Source of the DNA: an uncultured Bdellovibrionales bacterium
GTDB lineage: Bacteria; Bdellovibrionota; Bdellovibrionia; Bdellovibrionales; UBA1609
Assembly: GCA_938001965.1 (NCBI GenBank)
Contig: CALLBC010000114.1
Coordinates: 1-39,819 of the forward strand
Direction: 5' to 3'
DNA length: 39,819 nucleotides
Within the stretch, counting starts at the first letter, position 1. Each line of letters opens with the position of its first letter. Position numbers and translations under genes: made by a program. Shown piece after piece: positions 7,068 to 36,893 of the stretch. The notes beneath the pieces are model-generated. The model did no database searches. It was not told the origin of the DNA and saw nothing but the letters and a program-made list of their open reading frames with translations.

Positions 7068-7100
7068 AAGGATTGGACCTGTTTTTTTGTGGAACGGGTC
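7052..7100 (+). other. Inverted/direct repeats upstream of mobC; candidate oriT or attenuator
   Basis: Between the last tra gene and mobC there is a direct repeat TTGGACC (7052-7058 and 7073-7079) and an imperfect hairpin GACCTGTT (7076-7083) / AACGGGTC (7093-7100) with a T-rich loop. Origins of transfer of MobC-type relaxases usually lie next to mobC and carry an inverted repeat beside the nick site, so this is a reasonable oriT candidate. I cannot recognise a nick-site consensus. A weak terminator or attenuator is an equally possible reading. Confidence 0.25.
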
Positions 7101-7145
7101 TATTTAGAACAAGTACAGAAATACTTTTTAAATAAGGAGAAAATC

Positions 7146-7505
7146 ATGGACAAGAACAAAAAAGACACACAGGATTCAAGAAATGGTAAATCTACCAGAA
7201 AGTGTGTGTACCTAAGGCTATCAGATCAAGAGTATGAATCACTAGATAGATTAAGCCTCAAGACTGGTCTTAAAAAAACATCTGTACTCAAAGAAGGCTT
7301 AAATAGACTTTCAATTCAACCAGAAATAGTTACTCAAAAAGATTATAAAGCACTCCTTACACAACTCATAAAAATTGGCACTAACATCAATCAAATTAGT
7401 AAAGTGGCCAATAGTAGACAATATATAAGTCAAAAACAGGTCCTTCTAAAGATCTCTAGTCAGGTTAATGAAATCAAATCAATGGTGGAAAGTGGCATAC
7501 GTTAA
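7146..7505 (+). CDS. mobC: MobC-like mobilisation accessory protein
   Basis: A 119-residue protein that helps the relaxase open the origin of transfer. Residues 18-55 (CVYLRLSDQEYESLDRLSLK and following) look like a ribbon-helix-helix DNA-binding fold. The C-terminal part, with LIKIGTNINQISKVAN near residues 71-86, is the typical MobC motif. I chose ATG 7146 because it has the ribosome binding site AAGGAG; the frame is open further upstream. Its end overlaps the relaxase start by 14 bases, the usual mobC-relaxase arrangement. Such proteins commonly repress their own promoter. Confidence 0.85.
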   Translation: MDKNKKDTQDSRNGKSTRKCVYLRLSDQEYESLDRLSLKTGLKKTSVLKEGLNRLSIQPEIVTQKDYKALLTQLIKIGTNINQISKVANSRQYISQKQVLLKISSQVNEIKSMVESGIR

Positions 7506-9180
7506 AGCAAAATTTGTTCACCATGTAAAAGACTTAGAGATCTATTTGCTAGCTCGTGATGAGAAAGATTTAAAGGCCTCAACATCAGGCTTTGAGTTAG
7601 GTGGTGCACATAATTTTTTCACCGAGATACAAAGCTATGCAGCTCATAGGGATACCCCAAACAAAGGAATACACATTATCCAGTCATTCCACGAGAAAGA
7701 AACCGCTAAGTTGAGTATCGAATTTTTACACCAAATGGGTCGAGAGTTTATAGAAAAAGCATACCCAGGCTTTGATTATATGGTCGTTAGTCATTGGGAT
7801 ACAGAGCACAAACATAATCATATTTTACTTAATAACTATTCTCTCGAAAATGATAAATTAATTAGAAACAAGTACTCTGTACGTGATCATCTAAGAGATG
7901 TAAGTGACGATATCATTAGCCGTTATGGATTTGAAATTATACACGAAAAACCCAAAGGGCAGGTTCATGGCTTCTTTAATAAGGTAACTCCAACTGAAGA
8001 CGAAGAGTCTAAACCCTCTTTAAAAGAGAAGCAGTTCATGTATAGAGTAGAGACCGGCTTTGCTCTATCAAATAACTTAAAAGAATTTGAACGAGTACTT
8101 GAAATTTTCTCTGTGGAGGTTAGCTATACTAAAAATGGAGTTATTTTTGACTCCGGTAAGGGTATTAAAAATCTTAATGGCGGTAACTACTCAGCACATC
8201 TTGAGTCAAAATCGAGCCTTAAACAGTTCTTCAAAGAAAGAGCACTTGAAACTACAGTTCCCACATTAAGTGTTACAGAAGTTAAAAAAGTTAAGTCTAT
8301 TACTATGTACTCACTTCGTCAGCATTATCCTGATATATTCAAAGAAAAAGATGGGGACACATACTATAAGCACAATCGCAGTGTTCGTGTAGATTTTGAA
8401 AAAAACCGCTACGTGATGGAGTTTAAACCCAAAGTCACAGAAGAAAATCCAGAACCTAGAAAAGTAGATGGCCTAAAAGGGTCTCCCATAGAATTTTTAA
8501 TGGCCCACAACAGATTAGAGGCACCTAAGGTTTTAGCCAAAATAGTAGAAAACAAAGATGCTCTAAACAAAATAAAAATCCAGACGCAACACACTCCATT
8601 TAAAAGATACTCTCCTGGAAAAAAATATAAAACAAAGATAGAGAACTTTTTAACTTTCTTAAATGGGTCAGGGCTAAACAAAGATCAGTACAAATTATTT
8701 AAAACCCATGCTTCAAGTACTTTAGGAAAAAATAGAATTATTAAATACAAAAATCCATTAAATAAAATTAAGAACTCAATGTATTTTTACTTTAGCCAGA
8801 ATAAGAACGAATGGAGGCCCTACAGATATTTAGATTATGAAGATATTAATTTGAAATCAAATCCATCAGCTGAGCTTATAGCCTATGACAACCCATTAAA
8901 GTATTTTAAGGATAATGGCAAAGAAGAATTAAAAGGTAAGAATACCTTAGTTATATCAGAAAATAGCCTACAGCTATTAACTGATCCAGTCCTCGATATA
9001 TTAAATACATCTAGTAAAATCACTATCAAATCAGACAAGCCAGAGATATTTAGTTATTTAAAAAATTATTCAAATTTGAAAGATAAACTTCATTTCGAGC
9101 ATCCATCAAAAAATGATGTCTTGCGCCAAAAATTATTGTTAAAAACAAAAAAAATTAATGAACAAGAAATTAAACTCTAA
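7492..9180 (+). CDS. Relaxase (MobA/VirD2-like, HxDxxHxHNH type)
   Basis: The conjugative relaxase nicks one strand at oriT and pilots it into the recipient. The metal-binding motif is clear: HWDTEHKHNH near residues 102-111, preceded by GIHIIQSFHEKE, as in the Relaxase family (PF03432, MOB-P/Q-like). After about residue 160 the sequence is no longer familiar and has no helicase motifs, so this is not a TraI-type MOB-F relaxase although the secretion system is F-type. The start is taken as GTG 7492 inside the end of mobC; the frame is also open from 7468. Length is about 562 residues. The catalytic tyrosine cannot be assigned with confidence; SYAAHRD near residue 42 is a candidate. Confidence 0.88.
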   Translation: MAYVKAKFVHHVKDLEIYLLARDEKDLKASTSGFELGGAHNFFTEIQSYAAHRDTPNKGIHIIQSFHEKETAKLSIEFLHQMGREFIEKAYPGFDYMVVSHWDTEHKHNHILLNNYSLENDKLIRNKYSVRDHLRDVSDDIISRYGFEIIHEKPKGQVHGFFNKVTPTEDEESKPSLKEKQFMYRVETGFALSNNLKEFERVLEIFSVEVSYTKNGVIFDSGKGIKNLNGGNYSAHLESKSSLKQFFKERALETTVPTLSVTEVKKVKSITMYSLRQHYPDIFKEKDGDTYYKHNRSVRVDFEKNRYVMEFKPKVTEENPEPRKVDGLKGSPIEFLMAHNRLEAPKVLAKIVENKDALNKIKIQTQHTPFKRYSPGKKYKTKIENFLTFLNGSGLNKDQYKLFKTHASSTLGKNRIIKYKNPLNKIKNSMYFYFSQNKNEWRPYRYLDYEDINLKSNPSAELIAYDNPLKYFKDNGKEELKGKNTLVISENSLQLLTDPVLDILNTSSKITIKSDKPEIFSYLKNYSNLKDKLHFEHPSKNDVLRQKLLLKTKKINEQEIKL

Positions 9181-10547: not shown

Positions 10548-12194
10548 ATGGAAAAAATTTCTGATAAAGCAAGACACCGTAGATTCAGTGTAAAAGATGA
10601 TTCTAATCTCATTCTAAATTTTAGTTCACCTTTAGGTTCAGAATATCAAATGAATATTCTCGACTGTTCAATCTCTGGAGCGCAAGGCCTAATTGAATCA
10701 AAATTGGTTGATTTTAAAGTTGGTGATATTTTAAATAATGCTAAGCTTATATTTGAAGATAATGAGTTACAGTGTGGCCGCTTAGTTGTTAAGAGAATTA
10801 TTGAATCAAATAATAAATCTAATATTGCTATCTCTACTATTGATATACGCCTTCCCTTGGATGGGTTCCTTGCTAAAGCCATAGATCGTGATTTCACAGG
10901 TAGAACTAGCTCTTTAGACATGCAACTAGATGAAAAAAAATTCTCGTTGGCTGATTTTCTTGAAGCAAGTTATGACAGTAATGATATATTAGATAGGTGC
11001 AGTAAATTTAATCTTTACTTTAAAGAATTTCAAAAATCTAAAAAGTTCTCATATTTTTATCCTAGAGAGTCGCTAAACTCCTCTAGAGTTAAAATTAAAT
11101 TCACCGATGCAAGACCTTCCAGAGAGCTACTAATGTTTGGATCAAATGATTATTTAGGGTTAGCCTCGAACCCTGAGGTAATAGAAGCTGCTAATGAAGC
11201 CAATTTAAAGTTTGGCATTGGTACTGGTGGATCAGCACAGACAGCAGGAAATACGACCCTTCATGAGGAATTAGAGGAGGTTGTAGCCCGGATGCATGGT
11301 AGAGAAGACGCCATAATTATGTCTTCTGGATTTGGAGTTAACCATGGAATTATTGGTGGTCTTGCTAGTGTTGGTGATTTAGTTATAGCTGATCAGAAAA
11401 GCCACGTCTCTATACAAGAAGGAATGGGGTCTTCGAGGGCTGCAATGCGATTTTTTAAACATAATGACATTGGCCATTTAAAAAAGGTATTAGACCGCGA
11501 AAGAGAGAAACATAAAGGCTGCCTTGTTGTTACTGAGGGGGCATTCTCTATGAGTGGGAACCTTGGAAAAATAGCTGAAATTGTAGATATTGCCAATCAA
11601 TATGACTTCAGAACAATGACCGATCAAGCTCACTGCTTTGGTATTCTAGGAGAAAACTATACTGGTGCCGCTGAGTACTTTGGAGTGTCTGATAAAGTTG
11701 ACATTATTATGGGTGTATTTTCTAAATCTGCTGGAACTATGGGAGCTTATGTCACAGGCTCTACTGAACTTATAAATTGGTACAAGGCTTATGCTAGGCC
11801 GTATCTATTTAGTACCTCCTTACCTACTGGAATAATAGCGGCAACGCTGAAAGCTATCGAGATAATGAAAAAAGGACACCTACAAGTAAAACTAGCAGAT
11901 AACATAAATAGATTTAAAAATGGACTTACTGCAATTGGACTCCCTGTTGATTTGGAAAGCTCAACAGCAATTATTCCAGTTGAAGTAGGTGATGAAAATT
12001 TGATGGGAGAAATTAACGATATCTTAATTAAAAATGGCGTTTATGCCATTCCTGTTGGTTACCCTGCGGTTCCCAAAAATACCTGTCGTTTTAGATTTTC
12101 AATCTCTGCAAAGCATAGCTCTAGTGATGTTGATTTTGTTTTAATGGTTTTGAAAAATGCCTTAACTCAAGTAAATTTTAAATTAAAATCTTAA
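10548..12194 (+). CDS. PilZ domain fused to an alpha-oxoamine synthase (CqsA/LqsA-like)
   Basis: A 548-residue fusion. Residues 1-120 resemble a PilZ cyclic-di-GMP domain: an arginine cluster RHRR near residue 9 and the DxSxxG motif DCSISG at 39-44. The exact RxxxR spacing is not perfect. Residues about 150-545 are a full PLP-dependent alpha-oxoamine synthase: FGSNDYLGLASNPEV, GTGGSAQTAGNTTLHEELE, a stacking histidine at H286 (KSHVSI), D359 and H362 (DQAHCFG), and the PLP lysine K393 (GVFSKSAG). This family condenses an acyl-CoA with an amino acid. Members include BioF, KBL, HemA, serine palmitoyltransferase and the autoinducer synthases CqsA and LqsA. The downstream sensor kinase favours a signal synthase. 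The start has AAGGA eight bases upstream. Confidence 0.85.
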   Translation: MEKISDKARHRRFSVKDDSNLILNFSSPLGSEYQMNILDCSISGAQGLIESKLVDFKVGDILNNAKLIFEDNELQCGRLVVKRIIESNNKSNIAISTIDIRLPLDGFLAKAIDRDFTGRTSSLDMQLDEKKFSLADFLEASYDSNDILDRCSKFNLYFKEFQKSKKFSYFYPRESLNSSRVKIKFTDARPSRELLMFGSNDYLGLASNPEVIEAANEANLKFGIGTGGSAQTAGNTTLHEELEEVVARMHGREDAIIMSSGFGVNHGIIGGLASVGDLVIADQKSHVSIQEGMGSSRAAMRFFKHNDIGHLKKVLDREREKHKGCLVVTEGAFSMSGNLGKIAEIVDIANQYDFRTMTDQAHCFGILGENYTGAAEYFGVSDKVDIIMGVFSKSAGTMGAYVTGSTELINWYKAYARPYLFSTSLPTGIIAATLKAIEIMKKGHLQVKLADNINRFKNGLTAIGLPVDLESSTAIIPVEVGDENLMGEINDILIKNGVYAIPVGYPAVPKNTCRFRFSISAKHSSSDVDFVLMVLKNALTQVNFKLKS

Positions 12195-12211
12195 TTGGAA
12201 ATTAACTAATT

Positions 12212-14080
12212 ATGTATGATTACTTAGTATCTATCTTTGTTTCCAGCCTAGTCTTCTTTGGGGCACAGCTAGAGCCACCAAACAGTAATAAATGGAGCAT
12301 TGAACAAAACTGGGATGGTGGAAATACCTTCATTGCCACCATTCCCGTTCAGAGTCTTAACTGCGTAGACGGACATTCACTTTACCTTCCTGTGGTTCAG
12401 TATGGCCAACAAGAAATATTAATTGGTACTAAATCCTTAAAATTTAATAACCCAAAAGAGCCTAAGAGTGTATATGCAAAGCCCTCAGTTAGCTGCAATC
12501 TTTTGGACTCGTTTAGTCAGAGTCAACTGACCTGGAAAGTTAAGTCATATAGTGAGTACTATGCTAGAGTAATGAGTTGGCCAACTGTGAAAGAGACAAC
12601 AAGAGTATCAAGGTCTGAGCTCATATATGTAGGCTCAACTTACTCTTTAATAGTCTTAGTATTATTCATGTTAATTTTATTCTATTCTACCTCAGACACC
12701 ACGTTACTACTCTATATTTGTTCTTCTGGAATACTTCAAGCTTTGTACTCTATTCTAACCGCAGGAGAAATGTTTGGCATAAAACTACAATTCAAAACAA
12801 TTCATCAATTAGCAGACCTCTGTCTTATTTTGGGTAACTGCCTACTATTCTATGCATTTAATAAATTTGGTTACTCAAGTAAAAGTTTTTTAAAAGCCCT
12901 AACAGTCGTTTCTATACTTTCATGCTTCTTAGTAATAATTGGTAAAAACGGAAATGAAATACAGTTTGGCACGACATTCTCTTTCTTACTTTGTTTAGTT
13001 GGACTACTATTTATTTTGGCCAAAAGTTTCATTGAAATTATAAGAAACATCACAATCAAAAATATATCTATACTATTTTGCATAATGTTCTTGTTTATTG
13101 GCTCCCTCGTAGAATCAGCTATTGCCGGCGGGTCTATCGAGGCAGATAGTTATTTCCCACTATATTTACTAATGGCGTTTATATCTTTTGCAATCTCTAT
13201 AAACGAGAATATAAGATATACTTATATTCAAAGAAATAAATTAGTAAATGAAATGGAGAGTATTATTGAGGATAAGACTATTGAGCTTAAAAAAACAAAT
13301 GCCAAACTTGTTGAATCTGAGAAGTTAAGTTCAATTGGGATCATGTCTGCAAGACTTGCTCATGAAATAAATAATCCTCTTAACTTTTTTTCTAGAATTA
13401 TATTAGACTATAACAGTGTAATTGAAGGCCTTTTTAAGCAAAAAGAAATCCTTATTAAAGATGAGCTTACAGAAGATAAGAAAACACATCTAAAAAAAAT
13501 AGATGAAGAATTTGAAATATCTGATTTTTTAGATGAAAAAGAATATATTTTCAAGACAAGCAGTGAATTAATTAATAAGATGACTAGTATTATAAAGAAA
13601 GTCGGTAATAAAGCACACAAAGAGCAGAGTAGCCCTCAAAAAGAAGATGTCAACATATTAGACGTACTAGAGGGACTCCACCTAACTGTTGATACAAAAA
13701 TTTATAACAAACACGATATTGAACTCTTAATAAATAAAAAAAACTCATTTATTGCTAACATTAATTCGGTTGAAATAAATCAAGTTCTTACTAATTTAAT
13801 TTCGAATTCATATTTTGCAATTAAAGAATCTGAAAAACCTGGAAAGATTACTGTCTCTTGCACAAAAGACAAAGAAATTATCGTTGAAGATAATGGGCCA
13901 GGTATTGATCAAGAAATTATCAGTAAAATATTCGATCCTTTTTTTACAACAAAAGATATCGACAAAGGTACCGGCTTAGGACTTCATATATGCAAAGACC
14001 TCGCGGCTAGTAATAACTCTACTTTAGATCTTGCTGAAAGCAAGCCTGGGTATACAAAATTTATTCTTAAATTTAACTAG
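12212..14080 (+). CDS. 7-TM sensor histidine kinase (possible signal receptor)
   Basis: A 622-residue membrane kinase. An N-terminal hydrophobic segment and an exported domain of about 110 residues are followed by seven membrane segments between about residues 140 and 340, the layout of 7TMR-DISM receptors. A short coiled coil leads into the kinase core: RLAHEINNPL with phosphoacceptor H384, the N-box NQVLTNLISNSYFAI, the G1 box VEDNGPGI, the F box FDPFFTTKD and the G2 box GTGLGL. It starts 17 bases after the synthase, so the two are co-transcribed. CqsA and LqsA are likewise linked to sensor kinases CqsS and LqsS, which have about six membrane segments and no large exported domain, so this receptor is of a different build. 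The ligand is inferred, not shown. Confidence 0.85.
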   Translation: MYDYLVSIFVSSLVFFGAQLEPPNSNKWSIEQNWDGGNTFIATIPVQSLNCVDGHSLYLPVVQYGQQEILIGTKSLKFNNPKEPKSVYAKPSVSCNLLDSFSQSQLTWKVKSYSEYYARVMSWPTVKETTRVSRSELIYVGSTYSLIVLVLFMLILFYSTSDTTLLLYICSSGILQALYSILTAGEMFGIKLQFKTIHQLADLCLILGNCLLFYAFNKFGYSSKSFLKALTVVSILSCFLVIIGKNGNEIQFGTTFSFLLCLVGLLFILAKSFIEIIRNITIKNISILFCIMFLFIGSLVESAIAGGSIEADSYFPLYLLMAFISFAISINENIRYTYIQRNKLVNEMESIIEDKTIELKKTNAKLVESEKLSSIGIMSARLAHEINNPLNFFSRIILDYNSVIEGLFKQKEILIKDELTEDKKTHLKKIDEEFEISDFLDEKEYIFKTSSELINKMTSIIKKVGNKAHKEQSSPQKEDVNILDVLEGLHLTVDTKIYNKHDIELLINKKNSFIANINSVEINQVLTNLISNSYFAIKESEKPGKITVSCTKDKEIIVEDNGPGIDQEIISKIFDPFFTTKDIDKGTGLGLHICKDLAASNNSTLDLAESKPGYTKFILKFN

Positions 14081-14765
14081 TTATTTTTGATCGGAGCTCA
14101 CTGAAAGCCTGCTCCAGAGATGAAAATGATTGTACATCATTGGTCGGAAGATACTTTAGCTCATGATTTGAATCACTTTTTGTGATTTCAGCTATTTCAT
14201 TTATACCCTCTGAGATAATAAACTTATCAAAAATCATGAACATTCGTACACTATTCTTTTCTAATTTTATTTCTTTAACAAGTCCATTCAATTTAACATA
14301 GTCTTCCATTTCGTAGGGATTACTACAATAAAACTCTAAAGCCCTAGCTCTGTACATAGTTAATAAATTTCTCCAACTATATGAAGCAGCCGTCTTAATC
14401 GTATTAACTATAGAATCCGAGTCTTCAATCCAATTAATTGGCTTTTCTAAATAATCAAAAAAGAATTTTTTACTTAAAATTCTAGATGACAAACCATCAT
14501 CTTCTTCTAAGTTACCGGTGATCATTATAAAATTTAAATATTCTTTTTCCAAAGCTAGTGCTCTAGCCAGCTCTTCACCTTTCATCTCAGGCATAGTCTG
14601 ATCAGTAACTACAACTAGAGGCTTGCTGTTTTTTTGAAGTAAATAATCTTTAGCTTCAACTGGATTACTGAAGGTTTTTAAATCAAAAATTTTTTTAAAA
14701 GTTTTTTTATAAACATATAAGTTCTGCTCTTCATCATCGACAAATACTATTTCTACATTTTTCAT
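14073..14765 (-). CDS. Response regulator with an unfamiliar C-terminal region
   Basis: A 230-residue protein. Residues 1-125 are a receiver domain with every key residue: D10 and D11 (FVDDEEQN), phospho-acceptor D55 (VVTDQTMPEMKGEE), T83 (MITG) and K108 (LEKP). The remaining 105 residues are not a DNA-binding, GGDEF, EAL or HD-GYP domain that I recognise; they are helical and acidic. The gene is convergent with the histidine kinase and the two overlap by eight bases at their 3' ends. It is the obvious partner of that kinase, but it is expressed from its own promoter on the other strand. Confidence 0.85.
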   Translation of the reverse strand: MKNVEIVFVDDEEQNLYVYKKTFKKIFDLKTFSNPVEAKDYLLQKNSKPLVVVTDQTMPEMKGEELARALALEKEYLNFIMITGNLEEDDGLSSRILSKKFFFDYLEKPINWIEDSDSIVNTIKTAASYSWRNLLTMYRARALEFYCSNPYEMEDYVKLNGLVKEIKLEKNSVRMFMIFDKFIISEGINEIAEITKSDSNHELKYLPTNDVQSFSSLEQAFSELRSKITS

Positions 14766-14864
14766 ATTTATATTTTACATTTTTTTTACGCAACATCAAG
14801 ATGACATAGCTTTAATAACTTTAGTCGAGTTGATCCTTATATGCTCATGAGATACTATGAGGGT

Positions 14865-15788
14865 ATGATTATAAATTTTAATGGCGTTAGAGGCTCTATA
14901 CCTTTTGGCAGAAGTCCCAATGACATGAAAGAACTACTAAATAGTGATCGCTCTTTTGACTTAAACAACCAAGAAGACTTTATTAAATACTGTGGGCTAG
15001 GCTTTCATAGTACGAATATCATGATTGAGAATGACAAAAAAGATAGTTGCCTACTAATTGATGGCGGATCAGGTATTATGTCAGCTGCCAATAAAATTTT
15101 CCGCGACTATGCTAGAGAGCCAGAAATAAATATTTTGCAAACCCATTTCCACTGGGACCACTTAATGGGTTATAACTTCTTTCCCCAGGTTTATATGGGT
15201 AAAGTGATTAACATCTACAGCCCTTTAGATAATTTAGAGGAAAATTTTGCACAGTTATTTACAAAACCATTTTTTCCGATTGAATATTCTTTCTTAAAAT
15301 CTAATTCTGAATTTAATTTTTTCAAAGTTGATCCTTACAAACAATATAATATCAGTAGTTTTGATGTCACGTTTTACAAACTTGACCACCCTGACCCATG
15401 TTGGGGGCCTCGTGTATCTATAGATGGCAAAACATACTCTCACGCCATTGATACAGAAGCTGAACGACTAGATATGGACTCATTAGGCAAAGATAGTGGG
15501 CTATATGAGAATTGTGATTTATTACACTTTGATGCTCCATACCTAGAAGAAGAAGTCATTGGCCCTAAAAAAGGGTGGGGACACGGTTCAACTTTACGAG
15601 CTTTTAAACTGGCAGAGTTATTTAACATAAAAGAGATATCTTTTGGTCATTACACACCAGATGTTAATTACCAAAAATATCAGAAAATTCTTAGCGCGAC
15701 ATCATCATACTTTGATAAGTTAGCTCCAAATCTTAAAAATAAATTAAAGTATAACTTTACGTACGATGGACAAATTATTAATATTTAG
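14865..15788 (+). CDS. Metallo-beta-lactamase-fold hydrolase
   Basis: About 307 residues. The opening MIINFNGVRGSIPFG is the hallmark of a hydrolase subgroup of the metallo-beta-lactamase fold that includes PhnP-like and phosphodiesterase-like proteins. Metal ligands are visible: HFHWDH (the HxHxDH motif) near residue 95, then DHPDPCWGPRV, DTE and GWGHGS. I chose ATG 14865 because family members start just before GVRGSIP; the frame is also open from ATG 14841 and neither has an ideal ribosome binding site. It sits beside the synthase-kinase-regulator genes, so it may hydrolyse a signal or nucleotide second messenger. The substrate cannot be read from sequence. Confidence 0.82.
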   Translation: MIINFNGVRGSIPFGRSPNDMKELLNSDRSFDLNNQEDFIKYCGLGFHSTNIMIENDKKDSCLLIDGGSGIMSAANKIFRDYAREPEINILQTHFHWDHLMGYNFFPQVYMGKVINIYSPLDNLEENFAQLFTKPFFPIEYSFLKSNSEFNFFKVDPYKQYNISSFDVTFYKLDHPDPCWGPRVSIDGKTYSHAIDTEAERLDMDSLGKDSGLYENCDLLHFDAPYLEEEVIGPKKGWGHGSTLRAFKLAELFNIKEISFGHYTPDVNYQKYQKILSATSSYFDKLAPNLKNKLKYNFTYDGQIINI

Positions 15789-16329: not shown

Positions 16330-16713
16330 CCTTACCCCCTCAAGATAAAAATTTAGTTAGTTTAACTTAGACATACGAGCTATTTATAGGCCTTATTAGA
16401 TATACAAAATAGACTCAGTAAAAAATAAACATTAGCACTTCTTGTGGTTAAACTTTAGATGCCCCTACCTAAATAGTAATTTTTTCCGTATTATATTGTA
16501 GTCTTTTTTAATGAAAGTAATCATATCTAATGAGTTCGTCTTCATATTTCATTTTTCACTTATGAAACTTGATTGGTTTTTCCTATAAATATTTTTTAGG
16601 AAAAATGCATCAAATTGATAAAAAATTATCAATAATTTCGACAAATAAAAAGTCTATAAATTTTTCTTAAATCTTGCCGATAAATAATAATAATTTATTT
16701 GCAGGAAAAATTT
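16330..16713. promoter_or_regulatory. Divergent AT-rich control region with three hairpins
   Basis: 384 bases without a gene, between two divergent genes. I see three inverted repeats near the nuclease start: TTTTTCCT/AGGAAAAA (16577-16584 with 16598-16605), a perfect ATTGATAA/TTATCAAT with a four-base loop (16614-16621 with 16626-16633), and ATAAAT/ATTTAT (about 16682-16700) just ahead of the ribosome binding site. These could be operators. I do not see a convincing full promoter. Confidence 0.4.
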
Positions 16714-18066
16714 ATGTCTGAATTAGCTTTGTATTCATTAATTATTTTATTAATAGGCACCACAGTATACCTAGCTAAGCAACTTTTAATAAAAAGAAAG
16801 AAACTCAAAAAATACTCAGCCATTATTGATATTGAAAAAGAAAAGGAAACTCAGCTTAACCAAGTTATTAAATTAAAAAGCTCTTACGAAGAACTAGCTA
16901 AACGACATCTCATTTTAAAATCTGAAGTTAAAGACCTTGATGATGAATATCTAATATTAGAATATGGGCTATATAAGCCCAGATATGACTTTAATAATTC
17001 AGCCAAATATAAGGCTCGCTTAACTGAAATACGAAAAAAACAGAAGGCCATGATCAAAGATAATACAGCTATGCATTGTGCAACTAATTGGTCTGTTGGC
17101 GACAGTGTTAAGGCTGGAGAGGCCATGACAAAAAAAATACACAAACTGGCACTTACAGCCTTTAATGTCGAATGTGATAACCTTATAATGAAAGTAAAAT
17201 ATAATAACATTTATATCATAGAAGAACGAATTGAAAAGCTAGCTTCAAGAATAGAGAAATACCTCTCAAAATGGGGTTCTCATATAGTTGCTAGTTTTAT
17301 ACAACTTAAAGAGGAAGAGCTTTACTTAGTTCACGAGTACAAAGAAAAAGTTCAGGAAGAAAAAGAAGAACAAAAAGAAATTAGAGAACAAATGAGAGAA
17401 GAAGAGTTAGCAAAAAGAGAATTTGATCAAGCACAGAAAGAAGCTGAAAAAGAGGAGAGATATTACAAGAAGGCCCTAGATGAAGTTCATAAAGAATTTA
17501 AACTAGCAGATGATGATGAAAAGAAAGAACTCGAGGAACAAATTAAAAAACTTGAAGCCGAATTAAAAAAAGCTCAAGAACATAAAGTCCGAGCACTATC
17601 GATGGCACAGCAAACGAAAAGAGGTAATGTTTATATTATCTCAAACATAGGCTCCTTTGGTGAAAACGTATATAAGATAGGTATGACGAGAAGACTTGAC
17701 CCTATGGATAGAGTAAAGGAGCTTGGTGATGCCTCTGTACCCTTCACATTCGATGTCCATGCAATGATATACTCTCAAAATGCCCCTGAATTAGAAAAAG
17801 ATCTACACCGACAATTCAGTGCAAATAGAAAAAACAGAGTAAACAAAAGAAAAGAGTTCTTTAATGTAAGCTTTGAGGAAATAGAAAGTTACTGTAATGA
17901 AAAAAATCTTGATATTGAATTTACAAAAAAGGCAGTCGCAAAAGAGTTTTGGGAAACCAAAGCCATTTTAGCCAAAGAAAATAAAGTTCAAGATATAAAT
18001 TTATCAAACAAGCATGACACTACTGATGTTGAACTTCTTTTAAATGAAATTAACAAAGCTGCATAG
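16714..18066 (+). CDS. Membrane-anchored DUF4041/GIY-YIG nuclease (SNIPE-like anti-phage protein)
   Basis: A 450-residue protein with one N-terminal membrane segment (residues 3-24, LALYSLIILLIGTTVYLAK). A region resembling DUF4041 follows (about 55-230), containing the typical LEYGLYKPRYDF and RLTEIRKKQKAMI. Next comes a charged coiled coil (about 205-305), then a T5orf172/Mug113-type GIY-YIG nuclease domain (about 315-415) with GNVYIISN, VYKIGMTRRLDPMDRVKEL, LEKDLHRQF and RKEFFNV. This architecture matches SNIPE, a membrane-bound nuclease reported to cut phage DNA during injection. I chose ATG 16714 because AGGA lies eight bases upstream; the frame is also open from TTG 16699. No partner gene is needed or seen. 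Confidence 0.8.
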   Translation: MSELALYSLIILLIGTTVYLAKQLLIKRKKLKKYSAIIDIEKEKETQLNQVIKLKSSYEELAKRHLILKSEVKDLDDEYLILEYGLYKPRYDFNNSAKYKARLTEIRKKQKAMIKDNTAMHCATNWSVGDSVKAGEAMTKKIHKLALTAFNVECDNLIMKVKYNNIYIIEERIEKLASRIEKYLSKWGSHIVASFIQLKEEELYLVHEYKEKVQEEKEEQKEIREQMREEELAKREFDQAQKEAEKEERYYKKALDEVHKEFKLADDDEKKELEEQIKKLEAELKKAQEHKVRALSMAQQTKRGNVYIISNIGSFGENVYKIGMTRRLDPMDRVKELGDASVPFTFDVHAMIYSQNAPELEKDLHRQFSANRKNRVNKRKEFFNVSFEEIESYCNEKNLDIEFTKKAVAKEFWETKAILAKENKVQDINLSNKHDTTDVELLLNEINKAA

Positions 18067-32171: not shown

Positions 32172-35162
32172 GTGTCTTCTGCAGAATTTAAAAATACAAA
32201 ATCGAGTGAAGGTGATGCTTTAGTGTATGCCTTGATTGGTTTATGTGTGTTTTTGTACTTAGTGTTTAAGGCTAAATACGCGACATTCTTCGAACAGTTA
32301 ATATATGAGTTTAATTCAAATAGTGTGTACTTTTATATAAGTATAGTTACTTTAACGCTGGCTTTTTTGTTAAAGGCAAGTTTTGTTCTGTCTACTGTTG
32401 GTTTTTTTAGGTCTGGTAACAGGTTAAGAGCTTACGCCGGCCTGAAAAAGAAGGGGGTTAAGTCTGTATTAGAAGCACAGTTTTTTATTGTTTTTCTCAC
32501 TCTGGCCTCACTTTTCATAACTGAATATATTATCGAACTAAATAAGCAGAGGTATATAATCTACACAGTATTTATGTATGCAAACCTTTATGTTGGCTGG
32601 AGTTTATCCGTACATTTTTACTCCCATATATTTACTGAAAAAAATGTGCGCGGGGATAAACTAAAAAAATATAAACCAGAAGATAATAAAATAAGGATAG
32701 GTACAGAGGTCTTAATTGAAGAGTCAGAAGATGGTGAGAAAAAAGAGCATGAGATATCTCATTTACTTTTAAACAAAAACCAACTTAAAGAAAACATACT
32801 AATTACGGGGCAAATAGGAACGGGCAAGACCTCAGGGCTTATTCTTCCTATAGTGGATCAAATATTGAGTAATTTTTCAGACCCTACATTTGTCTGTTGT
32901 ATAGATCCCAAACATACATTTATTAAAAGCGTAAAAAAGATGGTGTTAAAAAAGCATACATCAAAAAAACTTATTCATATTTCATTTGATAATAATATTA
33001 CATTTAATCCTATATATGTGAAAGATGTATTAAAAAACGGGCGTTATGTAGAAGTTAGCTCAATGATACAATCAGCGACGACAAACTTTGTAGGCGGCGA
33101 AGGAGGTGGCAATGATAAATTCTGGACTTATTCATCTCAGAGCTTAATCAAGTACACATTAATATATTTAGCTTCTTTTAAATGTTACTACACTTTAAAA
33201 GATTTTTATCAAGTATTACTGGAAGTATCAGCAGTTCAGGACGAGGAAACAACACCACCACATGAGAAAATTGCAGTTATATTAGAAGAAAATGAATTTG
33301 ATGCTGAAGAAACTTATAATATTGAAACGGCATATAGCTATTTCAAAGATGTCTACTCAAATATGGACTCAAAAATTAAGAGTTCTATATTTGCCACAGC
33401 CACGGTCTTCCTTGAGCAATTAAATGAATTTAATATTTCTAGAATATTCTGCCCTGAAGAAAAAGATTTAACTATTCATAGTATAGATAACTTAGTGAAT
33501 GAAGATGGAATTCTATTATTTGATATAAAAAGTCCGGCACTATCTAAGCCAATGTGTGCAATTATGAAGATCCTAGTGCAAGGGGCTATATTAAAAAGAA
33601 CGTCTTTACCCGAGTGGGGCACAAAAGAGTTTCCGCTAGCATTTATTGTAATAGATGAAGCGCAACAGGTTGTATCAAGCGGCGGTGGTCACTCTATGGG
33701 TGATGATCGCTTTTTATCAATGAGTAGAGAGCCAGGAGCTTGTTCTATATACGCTACGCAGTCATTAACCAGTATTAGGAATACTCTAAAGTCTGAAAGT
33801 GCCACTAATGAACTTATCCAAAATTTCCGTACGTGGGTATTTTGCTCAAACACTGATGCTTTGACAATAAAAGCTATTTCAAACGTAGCGGGTAAAGTTA
33901 AGTACTTAAAGCAAAACAGAACAGTTGGAGAATCAAGCTCAAACGCGAACAAGGGTCTGCTTACAACAGATTTTAAAAGTGAAAAGTTTAACTTAAGTGA
34001 GTCCATATCTTTTGTTGAAGAGAAAAAAGATCTAGTCTCTGCAAATCGTTTGGCTACTCTCGGTAAATTTGAGGCCTACGCATTTATATCTGGTGTGAAG
34101 CCTAAATTTACTAAGATGTTTTTAAAGCCCATTTTTTTAAAAGACATAAACACAAATCATCAAGACTTATTAAAATTAATTCAGTGTTTAGTGTTATTCG
34201 TACTCATGGGTAGCGCAGACCTATCTAAAGCAACCCCCAATGTTTGCGACATAGTTTCAAGTACTAGCTTTACAAGCTGTATGGAGGAAAGGCTTTCAAC
34301 TTGCACTTGTGGTTATCCTCCTCACCCCTGTCAGAATTATCAGTACTATATTCCTTATGCCTTTGTGGAAGTTGTAGCTAACCCTAAAAAAACATTTTTT
34401 TCGGGCTATTCATTTCAAAATATTAAAGAAACAAGAGGGGCTGGGAATATATCAGACAATGGCTTTTTTTATACCGCTAGGACAATAACCATTCCTTACT
34501 CTTATTATACTTTAAATAACATGGCTTGTGGTGGGGCTCGGATGGAAAAATATTGTTACGACATTAAATCAGGTGATTTAGGCAATAATTGGCTAACAGG
34601 GAAGGCTGATATGAATCAGTTGCAGTTTAAAGCCTGGACTAGTTCACCAAACTCTTGCCTACAAGTCGGTGCTGTAAGTGGTGCCGCCGGAAACTTTGGA
34701 GGTATCGGCGCGGGACTTCCTTCATGCTCTTTTAAAACTAAAATGGATAAATACCCCCCGTCCCAACACCCCCAATGCACGGGGTGGGGGTTCCATTTTC
34801 CTAGGGTTGGCTATGATAATAATCCGCAAAGTACAATTTCAGCCCTTAATGTAGGGGCTAGAATCTTATCTCTTGGTAAAGAGGTGATGATGACTTTGAA
34901 GGGGGGACCTTTAGAGAAATGGCAAATGATATACCCACAAAAATCAAGCTGCTTTAAAGAGGGTAAAAACCCAGGGATTTTGGAGCTTGGAAAGGCTGTA
35001 AATGATGCCAAAAGAACCAAAGGGAAAATGGATCAAGATTATCTGTTTGTAGTTTGGAAGCAGGTTTCTTGTTGCAAAGAATATACAACTTTAGTGAGTC
35101 ATAACATTGTTAAGGCCGCTTTGATGGGCGTTTGCCAGGGAGGAAGTAGTGGAAACAATTAG
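32172..35162 (+). CDS. Coupling protein TraD/VirD4 fused to a TraU-like domain
   Basis: A 996-residue fusion starting with GTG (AAGGG upstream). Residues 15-150 hold four hydrophobic segments. The ATPase domain follows, with Walker A GQIGTGKT at 213-220 and Walker B FIVIDEAQQVV near 495, as in coupling proteins that feed DNA to the channel. Near residues 665-685 a hydrophobic stretch LIQCLVLFVLMGSA looks like a signal sequence. Beyond it come 310 cysteine-rich residues with TraU features: CTCGYPPHPC, a late FHFPRVGYD, EKWQMIYPQKSSC and VVWKQVSCC. F TraU is exported and about this long. The ATPase must face the cytoplasm and TraU the periplasm, so the hydrophobic stretch must span the membrane or be cleaved. 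I see no ribosome binding site for a separate TraU start. Confidence 0.82.
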   Translation: MSSAEFKNTKSSEGDALVYALIGLCVFLYLVFKAKYATFFEQLIYEFNSNSVYFYISIVTLTLAFLLKASFVLSTVGFFRSGNRLRAYAGLKKKGVKSVLEAQFFIVFLTLASLFITEYIIELNKQRYIIYTVFMYANLYVGWSLSVHFYSHIFTEKNVRGDKLKKYKPEDNKIRIGTEVLIEESEDGEKKEHEISHLLLNKNQLKENILITGQIGTGKTSGLILPIVDQILSNFSDPTFVCCIDPKHTFIKSVKKMVLKKHTSKKLIHISFDNNITFNPIYVKDVLKNGRYVEVSSMIQSATTNFVGGEGGGNDKFWTYSSQSLIKYTLIYLASFKCYYTLKDFYQVLLEVSAVQDEETTPPHEKIAVILEENEFDAEETYNIETAYSYFKDVYSNMDSKIKSSIFATATVFLEQLNEFNISRIFCPEEKDLTIHSIDNLVNEDGILLFDIKSPALSKPMCAIMKILVQGAILKRTSLPEWGTKEFPLAFIVIDEAQQVVSSGGGHSMGDDRFLSMSREPGACSIYATQSLTSIRNTLKSESATNELIQNFRTWVFCSNTDALTIKAISNVAGKVKYLKQNRTVGESSSNANKGLLTTDFKSEKFNLSESISFVEEKKDLVSANRLATLGKFEAYAFISGVKPKFTKMFLKPIFLKDINTNHQDLLKLIQCLVLFVLMGSADLSKATPNVCDIVSSTSFTSCMEERLSTCTCGYPPHPCQNYQYYIPYAFVEVVANPKKTFFSGYSFQNIKETRGAGNISDNGFFYTARTITIPYSYYTLNNMACGGARMEKYCYDIKSGDLGNNWLTGKADMNQLQFKAWTSSPNSCLQVGAVSGAAGNFGGIGAGLPSCSFKTKMDKYPPSQHPQCTGWGFHFPRVGYDNNPQSTISALNVGARILSLGKEVMMTLKGGPLEKWQMIYPQKSSCFKEGKNPGILELGKAVNDAKRTKGKMDQDYLFVVWKQVSCCKEYTTLVSHNIVKAALMGVCQGGSSGNN

Positions 35163-36207
35163 AAGGTTAAAAGTACAACAAGGCTTTTCAGCTGATGAAA
35201 AATTAAATGAGAAGACTCCTGTTGTAGAACAAATAAACGTAATCATTAATAATGCAAAAAATCTAAACGCCTCTGACATTCATATAGAAACAACAAGAGA
35301 GAATTGTATAGTTAGGTATCGTGTGAATGGTGATTTACGTAAAGTTCAAACTATTCAGAAATTTATTAAAAACCAGTTTATTACTGAGTTAAAACGCATT
35401 TGTAAGTTTAATATTTCCTCAATTGATACCCTTCAAGATTCTTCAGTTGAGTTTAAAACATTACAATTGACTATTAGGGGAAGCTTAATCCCCTCATTAT
35501 ATGGTGAGAATATAGTTTTAAGATTGATTAACCAAGAACACCAGCCATGTCTTTCTGATATCATTCGCAAAGAGCAAGAAGATCTAAGCAAACAAGTTCT
35601 AAATAAATTAAAGAGGAAGTCAGGTGTTATATTACTATCTGGTGCCACGGGCAGCGGTAAATCTACGACAGTCTACGGAATGTTAAAAGAGCTTGATAAG
35701 AAGATTAAAAAAGTAGTTTCGATAGAAAATCCAGTTGAAAAAAGAGTGGCTGGCGTTAGTCAGTTTGAAGTCACTAAAAAGATGGAATTTAAAACTATTT
35801 TAAAGGGTGTTTTAAGGCATGACCCTGACATTATTTTTATTGGAGAGATTAGAGACGAAGTTTCTGCCGAGATAGCCTTTCAATCTGCAAATACTGGGCA
35901 TTTAGTGATTTCAACTATTCACGCGAATAACCCAAGCAGTGTGGTTCCAAGACTAAAAGGGCTTGGGATATCAGAGGACATTGTAGATGACTCTTTACTG
36001 CTTGTGATGTCACAGCGTTTGGAAAAGTTACTTTGTGCCTGTAAGCAGATTGGAGGTCAATCAAGTGAGGGTTGTAAAAAATGCCATGAGGGTGTGATAG
36101 GTCGCACGGCACTGTTTGATTACTTAACTCAGGAACAAATTTTAGCAGGTGAAAGGTATAAGAAGTTTGATGACACTGAGTTAAGATCAAAAGGAATTAT
36201 CTTATGA
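35149..36207 (+). CDS. GspE/PilB-type secretion ATPase
   Basis: A 352-residue ATPase of the GspE/PilB/PilT group. Visible are NASDIHIE (N-terminal domain), Walker A GATGSGKSTTVYGML near residue 165, the Asp box IENPVE, Walker B RHDPDIIFIGEIRD, the His box TGHLVISTIHANN, and a zinc-type cysteine cluster (CAC, GCKKC) ahead of GVIGRTALFDYL. Its length lacks the extra N-terminal domain of full GspE. It starts with GTG after GGGAGG, overlapping the coupling-protein gene by 14 bases, and overlaps the next gene as ATGA. F-type systems normally have no VirB11-type ATPase, so this may fill that role, or drive pilus dynamics. Confidence 0.9.
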   Translation: METIRRLKVQQGFSADEKLNEKTPVVEQINVIINNAKNLNASDIHIETTRENCIVRYRVNGDLRKVQTIQKFIKNQFITELKRICKFNISSIDTLQDSSVEFKTLQLTIRGSLIPSLYGENIVLRLINQEHQPCLSDIIRKEQEDLSKQVLNKLKRKSGVILLSGATGSGKSTTVYGMLKELDKKIKKVVSIENPVEKRVAGVSQFEVTKKMEFKTILKGVLRHDPDIIFIGEIRDEVSAEIAFQSANTGHLVISTIHANNPSSVVPRLKGLGISEDIVDDSLLLVMSQRLEKLLCACKQIGGQSSEGCKKCHEGVIGRTALFDYLTQEQILAGERYKKFDDTELRSKGIIL

Positions 36208-36893
36208 TCTTATTACTATTTATATTTTCAATAACAATTCAGACTCATTCAAAGCCATATTTTGATTCTAAGATTAGTTATTTTGATGAAGTAAAAAAAG
36301 AAATTCCCAAAAAAAAGGCTAATAAACAAACTAAAAAGGATGGCTTTTCATGGGCGGAGCAGATGGACCCTAATAATGATGAGTTTTTCAAAGAGGGTAA
36401 CTATATGCCTCCGAAGGCTTACATTGAAGCGATAAGAAATCCAAGTGATGAAAATGTGAAAAACTATTTAAGCTATATGGGTAAAAAGCAAAAACTGTTG
36501 GAAGCATTTAAAAATAAAGTTGCAAATCTGTCCCAAACTAAAAAAGTAAATGTTCATTTACAGGATCAGCCGCAAATATCAAACTTTGATCAAAAGGTAC
36601 TATTTTTTCATGATATTGACTGTCCTTTTTGTAAAAAAATGTATCCAGAAATCAATCAAGCCTTAAATAGTGGGGTGTTTGTTGAAGCCATACGCGTGGA
36701 CAAAAAAAGAGAGCAGACAAAGGGGTTAATTATCCCTTCAAGAAGAATAACTAAGAAAGAGCGCGCAAAATATAAAATTGAGGCGGTTCCGGCGCTGTTG
36801 GTCGTGAATAAAAAGAACAAAAAAATACTTAAGTACAGTGGTTATAAAAATTTTAAAGAAATAATTAATATTCTAAAAAGTGGGGAAATATGA
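36204..36893 (+). CDS. traF: TraF/TrbB-like periplasmic thioredoxin
   Basis: A 229-residue exported protein with a short signal peptide (MILLLFIFSITIQTHS). Residues 48-110 (GFSWAEQMDPNNDEFF, PPKAYIEAIRNPSDENVKNY) are typical of F-type TraF. The C-terminal thioredoxin domain has an active CPFC motif at C140/C143 and a cis-proline in EAVPALLV. TraF of F lacks an active CXXC while TrbB has one, so this combines both. It would form or shuffle disulfides in the cysteine-rich TraU domain encoded two genes upstream. It is coupled by ATGA overlaps at both ends. Confidence 0.82.
   Translation: MILLLFIFSITIQTHSKPYFDSKISYFDEVKKEIPKKKANKQTKKDGFSWAEQMDPNNDEFFKEGNYMPPKAYIEAIRNPSDENVKNYLSYMGKKQKLLEAFKNKVANLSQTKKVNVHLQDQPQISNFDQKVLFFHDIDCPFCKKMYPEINQALNSGVFVEAIRVDKKREQTKGLIIPSRRITKKERAKYKIEAVPALLVVNKKNKKILKYSGYKNFKEIINILKSGEI

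Follow-up and report, generated by a model that had tools for sequence, protein, structure and literature searches.

Why should a PilZ-like domain and a PLP-dependent alpha-oxoamine synthase (AOS) be joined in one protein, and why should its gene have those of a membrane histidine kinase and a response regulator as neighbours on a plasmid of an uncultured Bdellovibrionales bacterium? The locus lies in a stretch of 39,819 nucleotides (contig CALLBC010000114.1, hereafter the window), and a preliminary description had taken it for an alpha-hydroxyketone quorum-sensing system under cyclic di-GMP (c-di-GMP) control. Our analyses favour, with a probability that we put at roughly 0.57, a self-contained synthase-receptor-regulator module of the Bdellovibrionota that would act like quorum sensing or like another system based on a self-produced signal. 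The synthase-sensor-regulator module is real and recurrent, and apparently undescribed. Of the preliminary description, the PilZ fold, the linkage of synthase, kinase and regulator, and the conjugative plasmid were upheld, while the placement of the enzyme in the CqsA/LqsA branch and the idea of a plasmid census were not.

Gene arrangement of the cassette and its carrier plasmid

The PilZ-like domain and the AOS part are encoded, as first described, by a single open reading frame (10548-12194, plus strand, 548 aa; Table 1), in which the motif DCSISG was found at residues 39-44 and the catalytic residues H286, D359, H362 and K393 at the positions assigned to them. These four residues, and likewise S41 and G44, are invariant among the 16 family members aligned. 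The kinase gene (12212-14080, 622 aa) begins 17 bp after the synthase stop, and the regulator (230 aa) is convergent with it, the two reading frames overlapping by 8 bp, which agrees with the gene order originally given. Pfam models matched above their cut-offs in the synthase (Aminotran_1_2), the kinase (HATPase_c) and the regulator (Response_reg).

Table 1. Features of the cassette and of the carrier plasmid (window positions)
Feature	Position	Strand	Details
MobC-like protein and relaxase of carrier plasmid	7089..9180	+	plasmid context
PilZ-like N-terminal domain of synthase	10548..10922	+	residues 1-125; D39xSxxG44 kept, R9xxR12 replaces RxxxR
PLP-dependent AOS part	10980..12191	+	residues 145-548; H286, D359, H362, K393
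Membrane histidine kinase, sensor half	12212..13216	+	residues 1-335; N-terminal hydrophobic segment, predicted periplasmic domain (invariant C51/C95), about 7 TM segments
Histidine kinase half	13217..14080	+	residues 336-622; H384 in AHEINN, HATPase_c
Response regulator	14073..14765	-	receiver with invariant D10, D11, D55, K108; short C-terminus; without the cyclase-like output of relatives
MBL-fold (metallo-beta-lactamase) hydrolase, cassette gene 4	14841..15788	+	divergent from regulator

Because the window begins and ends with the same 141 bases, it closes into a circle of 39,678 bp. This is a complete circular plasmid with conjugation genes: alongside the MobC-like protein and relaxase, matches were obtained to TrbI, TraC, TraG, TraU, TraF, a coupling protein, a T2SSE-type ATPase and ParA, and the conjugative nature attributed to it earlier is thereby corroborated. 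VirB11 is usually absent from F-type transfer systems; here a strong match to a T2SSE (VirB11-like) ATPase adjoins a TraF-like thioredoxin-fold protein (35149-36893). A 996-aa reading frame (32172-35162) has a fusion-like composition, matching a TrwB/TraD-type coupling protein at residues 513-639 and TraU at residues 905-969. Near the cassette, the reading frame at 16699-18066 combines DUF4041 with T5orf172/MUG113 domains, a phage-like combination.

The source genome of the plasmid (3.5 Mb in 266 contigs) carries, on contig C82, a second set of all four cassette genes in an identical arrangement. Similarity at the DNA level between the two loci is limited to the four-gene block and the flanks are without match, which is why we count the MBL gene as part of the cassette. 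Amino-acid identity between the copies is uneven. It reaches 88% in the synthase core and 93% in the linker compared with 62% in the PilZ domain; within the kinase it is 48% in the predicted periplasmic sensor, 73% in the TM part and 72% in the kinase proper; the receiver (75%), the C-terminus of the regulator (53%) and the MBL protein (67%) complete the set. At third codon positions around half of the sites differ throughout. Together, the uneven identities and the third-position divergence point to an old split of the plasmid and C82 copies with the enzyme as the most constrained part; judged by these identities, the catalytic core is the most strongly constrained of the main domains.

The PilZ domain and its possible ligand

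The switch between predatory and free growth in Bdellovibrio is c-di-GMP-dependent. Bdellovibrio bacteriovorus HD100 is reported to have 15 PilZ proteins, whose study was still called for (PMC3271064). The Pfam PilZ model (PF07238) gave no direct match to the window protein. A profile built from 17 N-termini, searched against the PDB, retrieved only YcgR/MrkH-type PilZ chains at E <10 (best E 0.003), and hhalign paired it with an alignment of 23 PilZ domains taken from the same genome and its relatives at 92.8% probability, compared with at most 1.4% for 40 column-shuffled controls and at most 0.3% for unrelated alignments. Foldseek, run with a model of residues 1-130 that lends weak support (pLDDT 43, with one relative, L044, as input), gave ranks 1-14 to PilZ proteins or to a cellulose synthase complex that contains PilZ, none of them at E <0.001; a full-length synthase model made from the same single relative (pLDDT 37) was not used. 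Since the profile, shuffled-control and Foldseek results agree, the assignment of the N-terminus as a divergent PilZ domain is well supported, in keeping with the fold previously surmised for residues 1-120.

Whether this domain binds c-di-GMP is less certain. Among the 17 aligned N-termini S41 and G44 are invariant and position 39 is D, N or E, so the D/NxSxxG motif of PilZ c-di-GMP receptors is present. The accompanying RxxxR motif is not: all 17 domains have R9xxR12 in its place, with the first Arg offset by one residue relative to ordinary PilZ domains of the same genome, and because of this alteration c-di-GMP binding is not assured. The domain thus resembles the receptors YcgR, MrkH and Alg44 in profile, in weak structural similarity and in keeping DxSxxG, and differs from them in its RxxR, in its fusion to a PLP enzyme and in escaping the Pfam PilZ model. 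Some PilZ domains are known to lack c-di-GMP binding, and the altered arginine motif, common to 17/17 domains, could mean that the domain serves protein interaction or structure and not the sensing of a second messenger, the remainder of the signalling reading being unaffected. We consider this quite possible, though not the likelier case; the invariance of R9, R12, S41 and G44 in domains whose identity averages only about 31-33% suggests a conserved site and argues against it. Gating of the synthase by c-di-GMP is a plausible hypothesis, given the kept DxSxxG and the altered arginine motif.

Recurrence of the cassette in the Bdellovibrionota

We found the PilZ-AOS fusion in 17 of 369 Bdellovibrionota genomes belonging to several families, in 18 copies, one of which is cut N-terminally by a contig end; among named relatives, the one closest to the synthase comes from a Pseudobdellovibrionaceae MAG (L044). 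A profile search for the sensor half of the kinase retrieved 20 of the 369 genomes. Synthase and sensor are common to 16 genomes, that is, to 16/17 synthase carriers and 16/20 sensor carriers (Fisher p 2e-23). The kinase lies immediately downstream on the same strand, with a receiver protein adjacent, in 16/18 synthase copies, so that the synthase-kinase pair, for which a search in other genomes had been advised, does recur. The exceptions are G024, where the synthase occurs without the sensor kinase, and G021, where the kinase is divergent and a kinase-less 7-TM sensor (324 aa; L064 2323-3297) directly precedes the synthase. This kinase-less sensor could act as a decoy receptor, or it could be what is left of a kinase after decay. 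Solitary occurrence of the kinase in relatives, raised at the outset as an objection to the pairing, is rare: the sensor was clearly without synthase in only 2 of the 20 genomes (G264 and G249, both with divergent kinases), and two further cases were cut by contig ends. The sensor of G264 (L204 7107-9752), an assembly with an estimated 8% contamination, is fused to a kinase that looks, when read from sequence, to be of the CheA type. No other gene families recurred in the neighbourhoods of the 18 synthase copies beyond pairs of close relatives.

Outside the phylum, contigs were scanned with peptides of the window protein, and coverage there was weak. No relative was found in the viral collection; phage records yielded only AOS relatives, each covering <80% of the query; and the relatives in plasmid records were mainly AOS proteins that align with the synthase part. 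Of these 543 plasmid matches 2 extend over 80% or more of the query, and the best among the matches listed is a Streptomyces AOS (30.7% identical). The earlier remark that no such PilZ-synthase fusion had been described agrees with the open-licence PMC literature, in which we found no description of one.

Distance matrices for the parts of the cassette were compared across 11 non-redundant loci, which are few and non-independent. Synthase-core distances correlated with sensor distances (Mantel r 0.51, p 0.0008; 0.53 when controlling for the kinase) but not significantly with those of the kinase half (r 0.26, p 0.08), and the sensor and kinase halves of one and the same protein were uncorrelated (r 0.02). 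When all 15 loci, including near-copies, were considered, the correlation with the kinase was significant too, albeit weaker (0.42 compared with 0.60 for the sensor). A case in point is G021, whose kinase half shares 66-70% identity with the two copies of the plasmid's genome, but whose sensor shares only about 25-33% with any relative; the synthase core of G021 is closest to L097-L099 and its periplasmic sensor closest to L098/L099. By these comparisons G021 is a natural sensor/kinase chimera. That synthase distances track the sensor, and not significantly the kinase, is what would be expected if the sensor reads the synthase product, and the pattern fits a synthase together with the receptor of its product. 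Quorum-sensing systems are characterized by a linked synthase and cognate receptor; here linkage, co-occurrence and co-divergence are all observed, and the receptor is putatively cognate.

Family placement of the synthase

The synthase scored below the curated cut-offs for BioF (320 of 426 bits), KBL (313 of 460), HemA (278 of 339) and two serine palmitoyltransferase (SPT) models (292 of 640 and 286 of 500), and reached 188.5 bits against a cut-off of 428 with the CqsA/LqsA model NF005526, a cut-off exceeded by no gene in 59 genomes of the phylum. Maximum-likelihood analysis grouped all PilZ-AOS in one clade (100/100), separate from CqsA (100/100, on a long branch), SPT (99/92), KBL (100/100), BioF and HemA, and nearest to unassigned AOS of the same phylum (92/95); the exact place of BioF is unsure because its branches are long. 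The CqsA reference in the tree agrees with PDB 2wk8 at every residue along its whole length, and LqsA is represented by the NF005526 model only. Membership in BioF, KBL or SPT was rejected on the sub-cut-off scores and the separate clade, the firm grouping with one of these families that had been envisaged as an objection thus not being seen, and membership in CqsA/LqsA was rejected on the NF005526 score and the tree. The enzyme shares its fold and catalytic residues with BioF, KBL, HemA and SPT; it differs from them in forming its own clade, in falling short of their cut-offs, in its PilZ fusion and in its linkage to a kinase.

The main rival of the signalling reading is membrane-lipid homeostasis, in which the AOS would make a sphingoid- or sulfonolipid-like long-chain base for the cell's own envelope, the kinase would monitor the state of envelope or lipids and provide feedback on synthesis, and the PilZ domain would add lifestyle control, none of it intercellular. 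The close structural relatives of the synthase include solved serine palmitoyltransferases and a cysteate acyltransferase, and the co-divergence of sensor and synthase suits feedback sensing too, as it would equally suit a kinase that senses a product retained in its own membrane. However, the SPT clade is separate from PilZ-AOS, two genomes (G318 and G347) hold a second AOS besides PilZ-AOS, SPT-like in G318, lipid-pathway genes are not recurrent beside the cassette, and the patchy distribution (17/369 genomes) is unlike that of a core lipid pathway. On balance, we regard lipid homeostasis as rather unlikely. An ordinary metabolic enzyme, a BioF of biotin synthesis or a KBL of threonine catabolism that lies beside a two-component system by chance, would be in line with the BioF- and KBL-like top single-family scores, but is very improbable in view of scores that all stay under the equivalog cut-offs, the separate clade, the recurrence across families of the kinase and regulator, and of them alone, beside the synthase, and the co-occurrence of the sensor in 16/17 carriers. 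Likewise very improbable is true alpha-hydroxyketone (CqsA/LqsA) quorum sensing by which the plasmid would count its carriers, as the preliminary description had it: the gene logic is that of lqsA-lqsS-lqsR and the plasmid is conjugative, but the synthase is far from this family (189 bits compared with 428; tree separation 100/100), and a plasmid-specific census is unlikely because the cassette occurs phylum-wide and, in other families, without the plasmid (in G221 on a single 3.35-Mb contig of 3,348,710 bp) and has a duplicate with an 88%-identical core in the same genome.

Sensor, output and proposed mechanism

Family-averaged hydropathy places a hydrophobic segment at the N-terminus of the kinase, followed by a region of ~120 aa and then by six clear segments and a weaker seventh, the last judged from sequence; to speak of a 7-TM kinase, as was done at first, is reasonable on this basis. 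The ~120-aa sensor domain has invariant W28, W34, C51 and C95. The sensor half found no convincing match in Pfam or the PDB, and Pfam 7TMR-DISM did not match the window kinase or two of its relatives. Kinases of the 7TMR-DISM family have an N-terminal extracytoplasmic domain ahead of about seven TM segments and the kinase part, and the architecture of the present kinase is alike.

In the relatives the regulator is ~400 aa long: its receiver is joined by a linker to a domain of ~230 aa, for which the top PDB profile matches were class III adenylate cyclases, albeit weak ones (E 0.02). D27, D69 and R155 of this cyclase-like domain are invariant, and D151 stands where Asn is usual; we take D27 and D69 to be the two metal-binding Asp residues of class III cyclases, and positions 151 and 155 to be those of the Asn and the Arg. 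The plasmid regulator is without this domain. Cyclic nucleotides may be a common theme of the output.

The Lqs system of Legionella has the gene logic lqsA-lqsS-lqsR (PMC10692735), and the output domain of LqsR is reported to resemble a degenerate diguanylate cyclase (PMC10653808). As in LqsA-LqsS-LqsR of Legionella and CqsA-CqsS of Vibrio, a PLP-dependent synthase of the AOS fold is accompanied here by a membrane histidine kinase together with a response regulator; the regulators of the relatives end in a cyclase-like domain. Unlike in Lqs/Cqs, the synthase belongs to another clade, lies far under the family cut-off and has an N-terminal PilZ domain, the sensor half of the kinase is without a PDB match, and the output, where there is one, is class III cyclase-like and not GGDEF-like. 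The best reading of the cassette by this analogy is that it is quorum-sensing-like and of separate origin.

The signalling reading can be set out step by step. From its fold and intact catalytic residues, the synthase would condense an amino acid and an acyl thioester, and its product would be of the aminoketone type and probably able to cross membranes; the PilZ domain would regulate the synthase through a bound cyclic dinucleotide, with c-di-GMP as the likeliest ligand. The sensor half of the membrane kinase, as linkage and co-divergence suggest, would detect this product, and the kinase would pass phosphate to the neighbouring receiver, which in the relatives would drive the class III cyclase-like output. 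On the plasmid the short C-terminus and the divergent MBL hydrolase would replace this output, and the hydrolase may act in the turnover of the signal or of a nucleotide messenger. The complete scheme, an intercellular system of separate origin in which one second messenger, c-di-GMP or another cyclic dinucleotide, directly gates signal production through the PilZ domain of the synthase, the receptor pathway ends in another nucleotide messenger and the plasmid output has been rewired, is put forward tentatively, as more doubtful than the general signalling reading. If true, communication between cells in a phylum of predatory bacteria would be tied directly to a second messenger, through the PilZ domain of a putative signal synthase that has its own receptor, and PLP-synthase/kinase signalling would extend to a separate AOS clade. 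The cassette is small and self-contained, and hence testable in E. coli.

The same genome encodes a third MBL paralogue (C139; L211 1235-3644), 35% identical, which adjoins a 443-aa reading frame whose N-terminus resembles, by eye, a cNMP-binding domain.
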